A stretch of DNA of 64,000 nt from Sandaracinaceae bacterium. Lineage in GTDB: Bacteria > Myxococcota_A > Polyangia > Polyangiales > Sandaracinaceae. Each line of letters starts with the position of its first letter. Position 1 is the first letter of the stretch. The notes under the pieces are model-generated. The model did no database searches. It saw nothing but the letters and a program-made list of their open reading frames with translations, and had not been told where the DNA came from. The position numbers and the translations under genes are program-made. The stretch is from the NCBI GenBank assembly GCA_040218145.1, contig JAVJQK010000074.1:62001-126000 (forward strand), given 5' to 3'. Shown here one piece after another: positions 16,726 to 63,902 of this stretch.

Positions 16726-18468
16726 ATGAGCATCACCGAGGAGCTGAAGCGCAGCATCGAGGCCTGGAAGGCGGACGACCCGGACGCGGAGACCGTGTCC
16801 GAGCTCGGCGCCCTGCTCCAGGCCGGCGACGCGGACGGGCTGGAGGATCGCTTCCGGGGGTCGCTCCAGTTCGGCACGGCGGGGCTGCGCGGCCTGCTCG
16901 GCGCGGGCCCCAACCGCATGAACCGCAAGGTCGTGCTCCGGGCGACGGCCGGGCTCTGCGCGCACCTCCTCGAGACGGTGCCGGACGCGAAGGAGCGCGG
17001 GGTCTGCATCGGCTTCGATGGCCGCAAGAACAGCCAGGTCTTCGCGGACGACGCGGCGCGCGTGGTCGCCGGCTTCGGCATCCGGGTCTACGCGTTCGAT
17101 CGCGTGGTGCCGACGCCGGTGCTCGCCTTCAGCTGCCTCGACAAGCGCGCGGCGGCCGGCATCATGGTCACCGCGAGCCACAACCCGCCGGCCTACAACG
17201 GCTACAAGGTCTACTGGGAGAACGGCGCGCAGATCATCCCGCCGATCGACGGCGGCATCGCGAAGGCGATCGCGGCCGTGGGCGGGGTGGCGTCCATCCC
17301 GCAGAAGGATCTGGGCGAGGCCGAAGACGAGGGCCTCTACACGATCCCCTCCGACCAGCTCGAGCGGCGGTACCTCGACGGGGTGCGCGCGCTCCAGGTG
17401 CACCCGGGCCTGCCGCGCGACGTGTCGATCGCCTACACGGCGCTGCACGGGGTGGGCAACGCGCTCGCGCTCGCGGCGCTGGCGGACGCCGGCTTCACGA
17501 ACGTGCACTCGGTCCCCGAGCAGGCCGAGCCAGACGGCGCGTTCCCCACCGTCGAGTTCCCCAACCCGGAGGAAGCCGGCGCGATGGATCTCGTGCTCGC
17601 GCTCGCCGAGCAGCGGGGCACCGATCTCGTGATGGCGAACGATCCCGACGCGGATCGCCTCGCGGTGGCGGTGCGGAGCCGCGACGGCGGCTACGTCCAG
17701 CTCACCGGGAACGAGGTCGGCGCGCTGCTCGGCCACTACCTGCTGGACCAGGGCCCGGCCGGAGACGGGCGCGTGGTCATCAACACCATCGTCAGCTCGC
17801 CGATGCTCGGCGCGATCGCGGAGCAGCACGGCGCGCGATGGGAGCAGACCCTCACCGGCTTCAAGTGGATCGCCAACCGCGCGATGGAGCTGAACAAGAA
17901 GGGCGAGGCCCGCTTCGTCTTCGGCTACGAGGAGGCGCTCGGCTACACGGTGGGCCGCCTCGTCCGGGACAAGGACGGCATCGGCACCGCGGTGGTCTTC
18001 GCGGACATGGCCGCGTGGTGCAAGAGCCGCGAGCGCACCCTGCTCGACGAGCTGGAGCAGGCGTGGCGCCGCTACGGCATGTACCTCAGCCGCCAGGTCT
18101 CCGAGGTGCACCCGGGCGTGGAGGGGGCCGAGAAGATCCGCGCCGCCATGGAGACGGTGCGCAAGGCGCCGCCCGCCGTGATCGGGGGCCACGAGGTGAC
18201 CGCGCGGCTCGACATCCTCACCGCCGAGCGCACGACGAAGGACGGCGCCACGAGCGCCATCGATCTGCCGAAGGGCAACGTGCTCGCGTTCGAGCTCGCC
18301 GGAGGCCACCGCGTGATGCTCCGCCCGAGCGGCACCGAGCCCAAGATCAAGTACTACTTCGACGTCCGCGTGGACATGCAGGACGGCGAGACCGTGGACG
18401 CGGCCAAGGCGCGCGGCGAGGCGCTGCTCGACGCGCTCGCCGACGGCCTCGCCGCGCTCACGGGCTGA
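16726..18468 (+). CDS. Phosphohexomutase (phosphoglucomutase/phosphomannomutase family)
   Basis: A 580-residue alpha-D-phosphohexomutase. The phosphoserine loop is VTASHNPPAYNGYK with catalytic S151, the Mg-binding loop NDPDADRL follows, then the sugar-specificity loop GYEEALGY and the phosphate-binding loop RPSGTEPKIKYY. Length and motifs fit the PGM2-like group, which interconverts hexose- or pentose-1- and -6(5)-phosphates; exact sugar preference cannot be read. It starts at ATG 16726 (an upstream in-frame GTG at 16708 would add six residues). Feeding glycogen and cell-envelope polysaccharide synthesis is the usual role. Confidence 0.92.
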   Translation: MSITEELKRSIEAWKADDPDAETVSELGALLQAGDADGLEDRFRGSLQFGTAGLRGLLGAGPNRMNRKVVLRATAGLCAHLLETVPDAKERGVCIGFDGRKNSQVFADDAARVVAGFGIRVYAFDRVVPTPVLAFSCLDKRAAAGIMVTASHNPPAYNGYKVYWENGAQIIPPIDGGIAKAIAAVGGVASIPQKDLGEAEDEGLYTIPSDQLERRYLDGVRALQVHPGLPRDVSIAYTALHGVGNALALAALADAGFTNVHSVPEQAEPDGAFPTVEFPNPEEAGAMDLVLALAEQRGTDLVMANDPDADRLAVAVRSRDGGYVQLTGNEVGALLGHYLLDQGPAGDGRVVINTIVSSPMLGAIAEQHGARWEQTLTGFKWIANRAMELNKKGEARFVFGYEEALGYTVGRLVRDKDGIGTAVVFADMAAWCKSRERTLLDELEQAWRRYGMYLSRQVSEVHPGVEGAEKIRAAMETVRKAPPAVIGGHEVTARLDILTAERTTKDGATSAIDLPKGNVLAFELAGGHRVMLRPSGTEPKIKYYFDVRVDMQDGETVDAAKARGEALLDALADGLAALTG

Positions 18469-33791: not shown

Positions 33792-34349
33792 TCAGCTGGC
33801 GCGCAGCACGTCGAGCCGGAGGGTGAGCCGGAAGCGGATCTCGTGCTCCGTGACCTCGACGTCGCCGTCCTCCACGCGGGTGCCCAGCGCGTCGAGCTGC
33901 TGGAGGTTGGGCCCCATGTCGAAGCGCTTGTCGAGCGCGCCGGTGAAATCCCAGACGAGGCCCGTCGATCGCGCGGTGATCGCATCGTTGACCACCGACA
34001 CCAGCCCCGCGTCGATCTTGTCCGGCACGTGCACGAGGTCGCCGTCCTCGATGTCGAGCTGGAACGCGAGCGCCTTGCCGCCGGGATCGCCCTCGATGAT
34101 CGTCGGTCTCAACCGCACGGTCACCTCGCGGATCTCGCCCTTCACGGGCAGGCTCTTCCACTCGAAGCGGAAGCGGCCCGACGTACGCACGACGGCCCCG
34201 AGCCCGGGCTCGAGGTGGACGTCCGTGGGCTCGTCCAGCTCCAGCCAGCGCTCGGGGTCGTCGGGGCCGTCGATGTGGATGCGGAGCGGGGTCAGGTCGG
34301 TGAGCCAGCCGCGCAGCTCCTCCAGGGTGATGACGGTCTCGTTGATCAT
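33792..34349 (-). CDS. Hypothetical beta-rich protein
   Basis: A 185-residue cytosolic protein without signal peptide. Alternating polar/hydrophobic strands (LRIHIDGPDD, FRFEWKSLPVKGEIREVTVRLRPTI, IRFRLTLRLDV) suggest two lipocalin-like or DUF-type beta sheets, and the central part is acidic. No family recognised. It lies 7 bases below the stop of the MopE-like lipoprotein gene in the same direction, so the two may be cotranscribed. Confidence 0.72.
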   Translation of the reverse strand: MINETVITLEELRGWLTDLTPLRIHIDGPDDPERWLELDEPTDVHLEPGLGAVVRTSGRFRFEWKSLPVKGEIREVTVRLRPTIIEGDPGGKALAFQLDIEDGDLVHVPDKIDAGLVSVVNDAITARSTGLVWDFTGALDKRFDMGPNLQQLDALGTRVEDGDVEVTEHEIRFRLTLRLDVLRAS

Positions 34350-54355: not shown

Positions 54356-54976
54356 GTGCCGCGACCCAGCATCGCTCTGCTCCTGCTCCTCGCCTCCGCG
54401 TCGAGCGTCCGCGCGCAGGAGGTCCCGGAGGCGCCTGCGAGCGTGGAGCTGCGCCCGGCGCGGGTGCGATTTCGGGCGAACCTCGAGGGGCTCGACGTCC
54501 TGTATCTGCCGGACCCCACCCTCGACGACGCGCTGTCGGTGCGGCTCGGGGCGCCGTCGCGCTACCAGCTCCTCTGCCGCGCGCCTTGCGATCGCGATCT
54601 GCCGCAGACCCACCTGGGGCTCGCCGTGCGGCGGGGCGCGCAGCTCGTCCGGTTCGACGACCCGCTCGGCGTGGACGGCCCCACCGGGGTCCGCCTGACC
54701 TGGCGCGACCGCGCGCCCGAGCGCGAAGCCGGCCTGGTGATCCTGCTCGCCGGCGTCCCCTTCGCCGTCGGCGGCGGCCTCGGTCTCTCCCTGATCGGCC
54801 TGACCGAGCCAGACGGCGACGCGTACTACGCCAGCGGCGCCGCGGTCGGCGGCGCGCTCCTCGCAGGCGCCTTGATCGCGGGCCTCGTGCTCCTCCTCGC
54901 CGACGACGACGCCGCCTTCGCCGTCACCCCGCTCCCCGACGCCCCCGCCCACCTCTACAGCCCCGAATGGCGCTAA
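54356..54976 (+). CDS. Exported protein with two C-terminal helices
   Basis: A 206-residue protein. GTG 54356 starts a good signal peptide (IALLLLLASASSVRAQ); GTG 54323, overlapping the exchanger stop, is an alternative. The mature N-terminal 100 residues are beta-rich with a Cys pair (LLCRAPCDRD) resembling PEGA-like surface domains, then two glycine-rich hydrophobic helices (LVILLAGVPFAVGGGLGLSLIGL, GGALLAGALIAGLVLLLA) and an acidic, Pro-rich tail. Likely anchored in the inner membrane with the globular part outside. No family recognised. Confidence 0.75.
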   Translation: MPRPSIALLLLLASASSVRAQEVPEAPASVELRPARVRFRANLEGLDVLYLPDPTLDDALSVRLGAPSRYQLLCRAPCDRDLPQTHLGLAVRRGAQLVRFDDPLGVDGPTGVRLTWRDRAPEREAGLVILLAGVPFAVGGGLGLSLIGLTEPDGDAYYASGAAVGGALLAGALIAGLVLLLADDDAAFAVTPLPDAPAHLYSPEWR

Positions 54977-55066
54977 GGGGACGGTGTTCGGTTGTTAAGT
55001 TCTGCCCCGCAAACATTGCGCACGCAAACTTTGCATAGCACAAGTTAACAACCGAACACCGTCCCC
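54977..55066. mobile_element. 90-bp REP/MITE-like hairpin element
   Basis: Two perfect 22-base inverted arms (54977-54998, beginning GGGGACGGTGTTCGGTTG, and 55045-55066) flank 46 bases whose halves also partly pair, giving 37 of 45 matched positions across the palindrome. The sequence is clearly AT-richer than its surroundings (TTAAG, AAACATTG, ACTTTGC). It sits between convergent genes. Such GGGGACGGTGTT hairpins are typical of REP-associated (RAYT) or MITE-type non-autonomous elements; no transposase is in the window. It may also terminate both transcripts. Confidence 0.7.
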
Positions 55067-55108
55067 TGGTCACCTCCTGGGGGTACGCGAGGGGAGATCT
55101 CGGTCGAG

Positions 55109-56767
55109 TCAGGGGAGGCGGGCTTCGTTGCAGCCGGGGCGGAGGATCGAGCCCTGGCCGACGGGGCGCACCTCGACGCGGCGGTTGGCGCGGCGGCCGA
55201 GGCGCGTCTGGTTGTCGTCGACGGGGTAGGCCTCGCTGCAGCCGGAGCCCGCGAGCCGGCTCGGGTCGATGCCGTGGCGCTCGAGCCAGCGCATGACCCG
55301 CCGCGCGCGATGGCGGCTGAGGATCTCGTTGTCGGGCTCGCTGCCGCGGAAGTCGGCGTGGCCCTCGACCACGACCTGCGCGCCGGGGTTGTCCAGGAGG
55401 TACTGCCGCGCCTCACGCAGCGCCGCCATCTGACTCGGACGCAGCGCGTAGCTGCCCTCCTCGAACAAGATCTGCGTGCCCATCGGCGGCGGCGCCTGGG
55501 GCGGAGAGCCCAGCTCGGGCTCCGGCGCGCGCTCCGGCTCGGTCGGGTCCTCACACACCGGACAGCCGGTGCACTCGGGGCGCGGCGCGAGCGCGACGCC
55601 AGGCTCGCTCGGGCAGCGATCCGTCTCGTCGGGCGCGCCGTCGTCGTCGAAGTCGGCCTCGGGGCAGCCGTCCTCGTCACCGAGCCCGTCCATGTCCTCC
55701 GCCCGGTCCGGGCAAGCGTCGTCGCCGTCGAGGATGCCGTCGCCGTCGTTGTCCGGGTCGGGGCAGCCGTCGTCGTCGGAGAAGCCGTCGGCGTCCTCCG
55801 GCTCGTCAGGGCACGTGTCGACGTCGTCGGTCAGGCCGTCCTCGTCGCGGTCGCCCGGGGGCTGCTCGCCCGGGGTCGCGTAGCCGAGGCTGAAGATCGC
55901 GCGGAAGTCCCCCGCGCCGTAGCCGCGCTGAAGCCCGGTCCCCGCCGCGGCGCCCACGGTGAGCCCCTCGACCGGATGCACCTGCAGGCCGAGCACGCCC
56001 TCGATGGGGGTCAGCTGCGCGGCGCCGAAGTCGAACAGCGAGGTCGCGCCCCAGCTCTCGGCCGTGATGTCGAGCACGCCGGGAACCACGCCCACCGCGG
56101 CGCCGAGTCCCCAGGTCAGCTCGCTGCGCACCTCGAGGCTGCCGCCGAAGTCCTGCCGCTCGCGGATCAGCACGCCCGCGTTGCCGGTGAACCGGAAGAC
56201 GTCGTCCGCCCGGACCTCCACGAGCAGCTCCGGCTGGAAGGTCCAGCTCTCCTCGCCCGCGAAGCGGCTCTGGAAGCGCGCGGCCCGCGCGGTGGGCGCG
56301 GTGGCGGTGGCCTGGAGCGAGATGGCGAGCGCGTCGTCCTCCTCGCCGAAGAGCCGGCCGCGCACGCCGAAGCCGAGGTCGCCGAGGCTGGTGCCGTCCG
56401 CGCGCGGCTGCCCGTCGACGAGCTGCCCCTCCATCACGAGGTTCACCGGCACGTGCGCGTAGAGCACCAGGCGGTCGAAGAGCCCGAAGCTGGCCCCGAC
56501 CTGCGCGGCGAGCAGGTGCTCCACGATCGCGGCCGACTCCGATCCCGGGTCGCTCCCGCGCAGCTGGAAGACCAGCGGGTTGAGCGCGTAGTCCACGTCG
56601 AGGCGAACGCCGAACGAGAGGTGCCCGAGGTCGTTGGGCCGCGACAGCGCGAAGCCGTCACGCGGCGTCTCGGCCATCCGGTATTGATCCAACCGTATGC
56701 TCTGCGCTTCGACCGGCGACGCCACGAGCGCCGCCAGCACCAGACACGACCACGTCCCCGCCCTCAT
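55109..56767 (-). CDS. OmpA-family protein with thrombospondin type 3 repeats
   Basis: A 552-residue secreted protein (signal VLAALVASPVEAQ). Residues 30-320 are a beta-barrel-like domain; residues 325-420 carry about five TSP3-type Ca-binding repeats (DRDEDGLTDDVDTCPD, DPDNDGDGILDGDDACPD, DFDDDGAPDETDRCPS); then comes a Cys-rich linker (CTGCPVC) and a C-terminal OmpA domain (LFEEGSYALRPSQMAAL, VVEGHADFRGSE, LSRHRARRVMRWLERHG, GRRANRRVEV). It should sit in the outer membrane and bind peptidoglycan. It converges with the upstream genes across the hairpin element. Confidence 0.93.
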   Translation of the reverse strand: MRAGTWSCLVLAALVASPVEAQSIRLDQYRMAETPRDGFALSRPNDLGHLSFGVRLDVDYALNPLVFQLRGSDPGSESAAIVEHLLAAQVGASFGLFDRLVLYAHVPVNLVMEGQLVDGQPRADGTSLGDLGFGVRGRLFGEEDDALAISLQATATAPTARAARFQSRFAGEESWTFQPELLVEVRADDVFRFTGNAGVLIRERQDFGGSLEVRSELTWGLGAAVGVVPGVLDITAESWGATSLFDFGAAQLTPIEGVLGLQVHPVEGLTVGAAAGTGLQRGYGAGDFRAIFSLGYATPGEQPPGDRDEDGLTDDVDTCPDEPEDADGFSDDDGCPDPDNDGDGILDGDDACPDRAEDMDGLGDEDGCPEADFDDDGAPDETDRCPSEPGVALAPRPECTGCPVCEDPTEPERAPEPELGSPPQAPPPMGTQILFEEGSYALRPSQMAALREARQYLLDNPGAQVVVEGHADFRGSEPDNEILSRHRARRVMRWLERHGIDPSRLAGSGCSEAYPVDDNQTRLGRRANRRVEVRPVGQGSILRPGCNEARLP

Positions 56768-63065: not shown

Positions 63066-63242
63066 CTTCCGACCGCAGGCGCTCCGCGAGGCGAACGGCC
63101 AGGAATGCGAGACGCGGGTGGAGAGGTTCGAAGGAAGCCGAACGAACGACGATCATCCAGACGGGGCGAGGGACCGGCCCGATGACCCCCGGCCAACCCG
63201 TCGCGCGAGAGCACGCGCGGCGAAGGTGGCAAGGCCGGAACG

Positions 63243-63902
63243 ATGGAGGAGCTCATGGACAGAGACGTGATGGATCTGGCGCGCGCCATCTCGCGCGAGG
63301 CCCGCTTGCTCGAGGTGGGACGCGAGGCGGGGCGGCGCTTCTATCGGTGGACCGAGACGGATCTGCTCGTGGCCATCGGCCGGCGCGACGTGCACCTGTC
63401 GCGCGGTCGGACCCACCTGGGGATCGACCGCGAGCGGCTGCCCGCTCTGACCCTGGCGCTCGACCGCTGGGTCGCGATGCGCGAGCGCTGGGCCGCCTTC
63501 TTCGCGCGCGGCTTGCCGCCGGTGGGGGCGCTGTCGAGGTACTACCTGCCGCCCTACGTCGACGACGCCATCGAGGTGGGCGGACGCGGCGCGGCGGGGG
63601 CGTTCGTGGGACGCGACGAGCTCCGTCCGTGGGCCCCCGTCGCCCTCTGCCGGGGAGTGACGCGGGTGGGCGAGCGCTGGCGGGTCGAGGAGCGGGTCGG
63701 CCCGCCCGAGGGCTCGGCCATCGGGGAGCGCTGGGTGATCGGCGACGGGCTCGTGCTCGACGCCGGGCGCCGGCACGTCGTCCTCTCGGACGATCCCGAC
63801 TTCGAAGGCCTCCGGCTCCGCCCGCCGGACCGGCCAGCCCTCCGCGCGATCCGAGCGCGCACCGGGCCAGGGCGCGGCGCCAAGCGGCGAGACGCGCGCT
63901 GA
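63243..63902 (+). CDS. Hypothetical Arg-rich protein
   Basis: A 219-residue cytosolic protein. An N-terminal helix pair is followed by a beta-rich core (DLLVAIGRRDVHLSRGRTHLGIDRERLPAL, YYLPPYVDDAIEVGG, RWVIGDGLVLDAG) and a basic Gly/Arg tail. No signal peptide, membrane segment or catalytic motif recognised. It diverges from the GST gene across 177 bases in which I see no clear feature. Confidence 0.7.
   Translation: MEELMDRDVMDLARAISREARLLEVGREAGRRFYRWTETDLLVAIGRRDVHLSRGRTHLGIDRERLPALTLALDRWVAMRERWAAFFARGLPPVGALSRYYLPPYVDDAIEVGGRGAAGAFVGRDELRPWAPVALCRGVTRVGERWRVEERVGPPEGSAIGERWVIGDGLVLDAGRRHVVLSDDPDFEGLRLRPPDRPALRAIRARTGPGRGAKRRDAR

Follow-up and report, generated by a model that had tools for sequence, protein, structure and literature searches.

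The names TIRtron and TIRYT, the GGGGWSAS motif and the description of TIR repeats as single, dimeric or grouped come from Di Nocera et al. 2013 (PMC3733652), cited here from part of its text. TIRtrons carry a Y1 transposase gene with HUH and tyrosine motifs that is bracketed by long TIRs, and they have dispersed TIR copies, some of them arranged as inverted pairs. The consulted part of Quentin et al. 2018 (PMC6006769) assigns 20 of 26 TIRYTs to subclass 2.1 of the TnpA-Y1 transposases, finds no REP-like sequences near the genes of that subclass and calls for the TIRYT link to be confirmed. A further point of comparison is the REPIN/REP-RAYT system of E. coli and S. maltophilia (consulted part of PMC8266576), in which intergenic, non-autonomous palindromes accompany a low-copy Y1 gene. 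TIRYT genes are numerous yet little studied, and the term TIRYT is rare in the literature that we searched.

Here, we describe a hairpin from a Sandaracinaceae genome that is very probably a non-autonomous miniature element of a TIRYT, i.e. of a Y1/HUH tyrosine transposase encoded between terminal inverted repeats (TIRs). Judged by its sequence, it fits the TIRtron/TIRYT class and subclass 2.1 rather than the GTAG-type REPs and REPINs. It has the GGGG-type end motif, and its genome holds the TIR-bracketed Y1 gene and the dispersed copies, some as inverted pairs, known from TIRtrons. The end found here, GGGGACGG, differs from the published motif in having G where GGGGWSAS has A and fits it at seven of eight positions. 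Three features were not met in the consulted part of Di Nocera et al. 2013: three genes with three repeat families in one genome, centres common to mini-elements and a gene-bearing unit, and paired half-sites; the string ‘Myxococ’ is absent from the text of the paper. Subclass 2.1, as portrayed in the consulted part of Quentin et al. 2018, shares with our proteins the NHVH or NH[YF]H motif, a Y[IV]HLNP-like motif and a C-terminal extension similar to Bac_DnaA_C or HTH_23, the last shown for the class profile. Unlike that paper, the Sandaracinaceae genome shows both the TIRYT link and the repeat families at first hand: genes, ends and mini-elements occur in matched sets that bear on the link left open for subclass 2.1. 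The element itself is thus of a known kind, a TIRtron mini-element, and the new lead is the paired half-sites in TIRYT ends, of which we found no description in the titles and abstract openings of the papers listed from the open literature. A literature search for REPs and transposases in Myxococcota returned nothing pertinent.

The window, by which we mean the whole 64,000-nucleotide stretch analysed, contains the palindromic core of the element at 54977..55066 (90 bp from GGGG to CCCC, without assigned strand), assigned to its family with a covariance model and blastn. Its left arm (54976..54998, + strand, 23 bp) reads A followed by GGGGACGGTGTT, and its right arm (55045..55067, - strand) is the reverse complement. 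The initial annotation had described perfect 22-bp inverted arms, and these are exact, with 54977-54998 pairing with 55045-55066; the pair A54976:T55067 even extends them to 23 bp. Its other observations on the hairpin were also borne out. Partial pairing continues through the centre, 74 of the 90 positions matching the hairpin's own reverse complement, and the GC content is low for this GC-rich genome (0.533 vs 0.730 for the window). The hairpin is the sole copy in the window, as GGGGACGGTGTT with at most one mismatch occurs only at its two arm ends. RNA folding of 54960-55085 gives -72.3 kcal/mol (z -9.07), and none of 200 shuffles was as good. Two other window sites, 18411-18457 and 34190-34272, have perfect arms of at least 12 bp (12 bp in both cases) with a loop of up to 80; three shuffles of the window contained 1, 0 and 0 such sites.

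The surrounding genes are convergent, as had been proposed. On the left lies a + strand open reading frame for a probable secreted protein (54356..54976, with a start picked by us), which has no match in Pfam or NCBIfam and whose TAA stop (54974-54976) directly abuts the hairpin. On the right is part of a - strand OmpA-family gene (55109..56230; PF00691, E 2.2e-17) with its stop at 55109-55111. Elsewhere in the window, at 63150-63249 on the + strand, there is a SAM riboswitch (S box leader) scoring 50.6 bits.

We searched the 11.06-Mb draft genome, which comprises 148 contigs. Used as a blastn query, the hairpin gave 76 matches at E <= 10, both strands counted; the best match to another place had an E value of 1.3e-16, a result independent of the covariance model. 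That model was built from alignment A1 of 20 copies, the window hairpin among them, and finds the window hairpin at E 3.5e-17 on the + strand and 3.1e-17 on the - strand. At E <= 0.01 it yielded 60 genome matches, both strands counted, which by our own count represent 31 places: 27 two-ended copies, two one-ended places (on C48 and at C101:155910) and two places with a different end, GGGGACGCTA (C101:80713 and C138:69209). The two-ended copies are 60-150 bp long; their number combines 21 with six from two listings and leaves out the C48 pairing. Further one-ended remnants lie on C50, C101 (two) and C127. The REP/MITE-like, multi-copy character suspected from the single window copy is therefore confirmed genome-wide.

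The aligned copies have near-constant ends and varied centres. By reading, seven of the 20 have CGGTTG arms on both sides, nine have TACTTG on both sides and four are mixed. The arm helix pairs in 92.9% of the cells of A1, compared with 35.8-46.7% when it is slid, and A1 gave no sign of arm covariation beyond shuffles (5 vs 5.5 pairs changed on both sides; 10 vs 12.0 further pair types). Since the pairing signal comes mostly from the two arm types, we do not take it to prove the structure. Under stricter filters, the family gave weak matches in four of 55 relatives (best 52 bits) and none in the eight other genomes of the same taxonomic family. No match across the window site was found at E <= 1e-5 in 27 relatives, none of which is of the same genus, and no empty site came to light for the window copy or its family.

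The initial annotation had suggested looking for a RAYT gene with matching flanks, and the same genome contains a RAYT-like Y1 gene whose ends match. Pfam Y1_Tnp matches fall on contigs C3 and C113, and the C3 gene sits inside a 1240-bp unit (C3:8355-9594) with 18-bp perfect inverted ends, GGGACGGTGTTTACTTGT; judged by alignment, the gene probably starts at L063:1447. Its protein has the motifs NHVH (HUH) and YVHDNP (with the catalytic tyrosine). Against Pfam Y1_Tnp it scores 23.5 bits in one search and 21.9 as a whole protein, for a cut-off of 23, and against NCBIfam REP_Tyr_transpos, searched alone, it scores 36.2, below the cut-off of 80. By itself, it has no HTH match. Over 40-66 bp, the left end of the C3 unit aligns with five mini-elements at 81-90% identity (own count), these five having been picked for looking alike. 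These mini-elements retain C3 leader sequence well beyond the 18-bp inverted end, as would be expected of internal deletion derivatives. The inner arm is CGGTTG in the window copy vs TTTACTTG in the C3 unit. Because no TIRYT gene with a CGGTTG arm was found, mobilisation of the window copy by C3 is something that we infer, from the common outer end and from the mixed-arm copies (4 of 20).

C3-like proteins are encoded on three contigs, C3, C122 and C87. The C122 TIRYT has ends CCGGGACGC and its own 85-bp family, family B, with 73 matches, both strands counted. The C87 TIRYT has ends GGGGACGATCCTACCCATC, found at 18 sites within two mismatches compared with one in the reversed control, and its protein motif, YHHRNV, has lost the usual proline of NP. 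The three genes thus have differing ends, each with repeats of its own. A PHROGs search with all three proteins returned nothing.

Homologues of the C3 protein at E <= 1e-8 occur in 52 of 282 genomes of the phylum, its own included, and TIRYT relatives are numerous, with at least 519 encoded relatives among at least 590 matched stretches. Our first set of loci took 81 of the 82 matches listed (G263:C364 was left out; two of the 81 are incomplete). With 797 mismatched flank pairs as the null, whose 99th percentile is 15, an inverted repeat around the gene scored above that mark at 60 of the 81 loci and did not at the other 21. As cut, the left arm fits GGG[GT]NC in 40 of these 60, and the looser anchor G[GT]G?NC[AG] is found in 58. 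A first scan of contigs with the C3 protein alone gave no relative; the second set comes from a scan with alignment A4, whose 80 loci became 79 once the query's own locus was dropped. At 63 of these 79, the repeat passes the mark of 15, and the top score among block-shuffled controls was 16 for each set (405 trials for the first, 395 for the second). Against a mismatched-pair null of its own, with a 99th percentile of 21.4, 37 of the 79 pass; this null is high because related loci have similar TIRs, and the second set was judged by the block-shuffled null and the first set's mark of 15 instead.

Across the 112 ends of 56 relatives, the successive anchor columns hold G in 95, G in 112, G in 91 or T in 21, G in 111, T in 53 or A in 46, and C in 112, counts that are partly fixed by the anchor itself. 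The position after this C is A in 53 ends and G in 59, and for this reason the published GGGGWSAS motif looks too narrow. When TIR type is mapped on the tree of the 56 TIRYTs, it changes eight times, compared with 22.3 for shuffled labels (none of 200 as low); it is clustered without a clean two-way split. In Desulfosarcina alkanivorans, a stretch of ~40 kb holds four TIRYT units that are nearly identical, sit at four unrelated sites and share one orientation, which speaks for mobility in the TIRYT class; a pattern search of that genome found no more complete units. Their common sequence continues ~8 bp outside GGG on each side (GAAAGTTA|GGGACATCC; GGATGTCCC|TAAGGTTC), and at some junctions the ends are tandemly reiterated.

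Direct repeats were first noticed in some TIRs of the first set and then tested. The 58 anchored TIRs of that set reduce to 52 non-redundant ones, of which 51 are long enough. In these 51, self-matching is raised at lag 7 (0.347) and lag 8 (0.344) compared with 0.264 (0/1000 shuffles each); there is a further rise at lag 1 (z 2.9) and a drop at lag 11 (z -3.8). Sorting by end type separates the two spacings. The 22 GGGGAC ends show lag 8 (0.436 vs 0.288, z 6.1; lag 9 z 2.3), the 23 GGGGTC ends, which come from the first set only, show lag 7 (0.405 vs 0.244, z 7.7), and five GCC ends are weak at both lags (z 2.7 and 2.3). The second set, minus four loci common to the first, provided 55 anchored TIRs and four without the anchor, from which we kept 29 that are non-redundant, unlike the first set and all of GGGGAC type. 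Lag 8 stands out again (0.509 vs 0.311, z 9.4, 0/1000 for the 29 TIRs; z 7.9 for the 23 that remain under the stricter mark), with minor rises at lag 4 (z 2.6) and lag 9 (z 2.2). The half-site signal is absent when the frame is offset by 30, 60, -30 or -55 bp: z at lags 7 and 8 then rises to no more than 1.9, and lags 6 and 9 reach z 2.4.

As a control for a shared consensus, first halves were compared with second halves taken from different TIRs. The two halves of one TIR match better than these cross pairs at lag 8 (z 5.2 in 22 TIRs and z 6.4 in 28; 0/2000 each) and, for GGGGTC ends, at lag 7 (z 4.3 in 24 TIRs; 0/2000). The halves change together within one TIR, as expected of sites read by a single domain. 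TIRs of the class thus look bipartite, with a common outer GGGG[A/T]C followed by gene-specific direct repeats spaced by 8 bp (GGGGAC) or 7 bp (GGGGTC). The right end of the C3 unit carries a perfect repeat, ACTTGTTG/ACTTGTTG. By analogy with the class, the two 8-bp half-sites of the window copy would lie at 54989..55004 on the + strand (CGGTTGTT / AAGTTCTG), where they are weak, matching at four of eight letters by eye.

A profile of 26 TIRYTs matches the TnpArep structure 4er8 over positions 39-149 (E 5.3e-7), and its positions 213-308 match DnaA structures, the best of several at E 8.3e-5. Taken singly and at E <= 1, 10 of the 26 match Bac_DnaA_C (best 9.1e-6) and nine match HTH_23 (best 5.3e-6); C3 matches neither. 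We infer that it is the DnaA-like C-terminal domain that reads the half-sites. In the mechanism that we propose, this domain would bind both half-sites, and the HUH/tyrosine core would nick near the GGGG end and transfer one strand. If the gene lying between the ends were deleted, two nearby arms would remain, i.e. a hairpin. The copies settle between genes, the window copy directly behind a stop codon.

A broader proposal, which we offer tentatively and hold to be possible but not probable, is that TIRYTs form a mechanistically separate Y1 branch. The C-terminal domain would recognize a pair of iteron-like half-sites, with a spacing of 8 bp for the GGGGAC lineage and 7 bp for the GGGGTC one, rather than a single-stranded hairpin, much as rolling-circle initiators read iterons, and the HUH core would nick at the nearly universal GGGG[A/T]C. 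The C-terminal domain would then set the repeat family of each gene, giving several independent families per genome that spread locally and mostly in one orientation. If the half-sites are real binding sites, the long-open matter of DNA recognition by the TIRYT group becomes testable by gel shift, and three genes with three families in one genome allow a specificity-swap test.

The simplest competing account is a plain bidirectional terminator, kept for that role between two convergent genes. A strong hairpin directly behind a stop codon is what such a terminator would look like, and the initial annotation had reasoned that a single copy in the genome, together with presence at this site in all relatives, would favour it. 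The hairpin instead belongs to a multi-copy family (31 places), so that the single-copy condition falls away; the copies are dispersed, their ends hardly vary while their centres do, and a transposase gene is surrounded by the same ends. There is also no T-run: terminator-like sites (a GC-rich hairpin followed by a T-run) number 0 in 54700-55400, compared with a mean of 0.2 in shuffles. We consider a dedicated terminator unlikely, though the hairpin may still terminate transcription incidentally.

It is very unlikely, in our view, that the hairpin is a classical REP doublet (REPIN) and that a GTAG-reading RAYT moves it, even though an intergenic palindrome and a low-copy Y1 gene share the genome, as in REPtrons. 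By eye, neither the hairpin nor its near flanks (54960-55085) contain a GTAG or GTGG foot. The element is one long palindrome with ~22-bp arms and the transposase carries a long C-terminal extension, as in subclass 2.1, both unlike the REPIN/REP-RAYT systems described in the consulted part of PMC8266576, and no REPs accompany subclass 2.1 in the consulted part of Quentin et al. 2018 (PMC6006769). The resemblance of the arm ends to those moved by REP-associated tyrosine transposases, to which the initial annotation had pointed, accordingly stands as far as a Y1 gene with the same ends is concerned; membership of the classical REPs is not supported, given the missing foot and a transposase of the C-terminally extended, TIR-flanked type, which published work separates from REP-flanked RAYTs. 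Less likely still, the hairpin could be the MITE of some ordinary DDE-type insertion sequence whose end sequence is alike by chance. Two inverted ends around a short non-coding centre are the usual MITE design, but here the ends enclose a Y1 gene; relatives of this gene lie between similar ends, and the type of end tracks the Y1 tree.

The TIRYT mini-element probably extends beyond its GGGG and CCCC. The C3 unit and 21 mini-elements (22 units, 44 flanks) have an outward flank motif in common, [T]CCCCGnnCnGGGACnA; position -5 is G in 38 of these flanks, and position -16 is C in 34. At the window site, the probable outer left end resembling this consensus is 54961..54976 (+ strand), which contains the TAA of the upstream reading frame, and the probable outer right end, with CCCCGnnCnGGGACnA in reverse complement, would be 55067..55082 (- strand). 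Because of this common motif and of the Desulfosarcina boundary outside GGG, we think that the mobile unit spans approximately 54961-55082 and that it supplies the last codons and the stop of the upstream reading frame. A preferred target could be an alternative source of the motif and would look similar. In 112 flanks of other TIRtrons, no such motif was found past the GGGG.

Three other accounts of the flanks were tried and rejected. As a separate genome-wide repeat, TCCCCGNNCNGGGACNA with at most one mismatch has 29 sites, the same as in the reversed control. For a palindromic target private to each copy, left/right complementarity was 5.32 for own flanks vs 5.90 for mismatched ones; compared in direct orientation, the values were 6.05 and 5.24. 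Stem pairing within the flank gave z 1.3 in the proposed register and 3.0 in the best of seven registers tried. Beside several elements, flank units of ~10-15 bp stand in tandem (L214-L216, L226, L229, C101:145911-146029, C94:15298 and C70:123971), much like the reiterated ends in Desulfosarcina, and these may be a trace of the insertion reaction.

Family B, the 85-bp repeat with C122 ends, forms clusters. Ten copies lie on C80 (L212, C80:20000-39500; seven on the + strand, then three on the - strand) and seven, all on the - strand, on C141 (L213, C141:10000-26000), with gaps of 94 bp to 2.9 kb. Genes next to these copies include AbiEi/AbiEii, HIT, PRiA4_ORF3 and DUF1963. We considered an integron-like cassette array because the 85-bp palindromes recur beside single accessory genes; by reading, their orientation relative to the neighbouring genes is not constant, and by eye the copies are more alike within than between clusters. 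The clusters may result from local spread that favours one orientation, or may be something cassette-like. Around the C122 TIRYT gene (L129, C122:59900-63500) there is one complete family B element on the left and two on the right with similar flanks, an arrangement unlike that of C3, where a single pair of ends brackets the gene.

A further palindrome family has ends GGGGACGCTAGGTTGACTTGT (L224, L225 and L064 near 1972 and 2325). No TIRYT gene with these ends was found, and two of the ends, in the same orientation, adjoin an IS200-like gene on C113. Additionally, three family C-like ends, GGGGACGATCCTATTCATC, occur with a spacing of 66 bp at L217 (C14:137000-138800).
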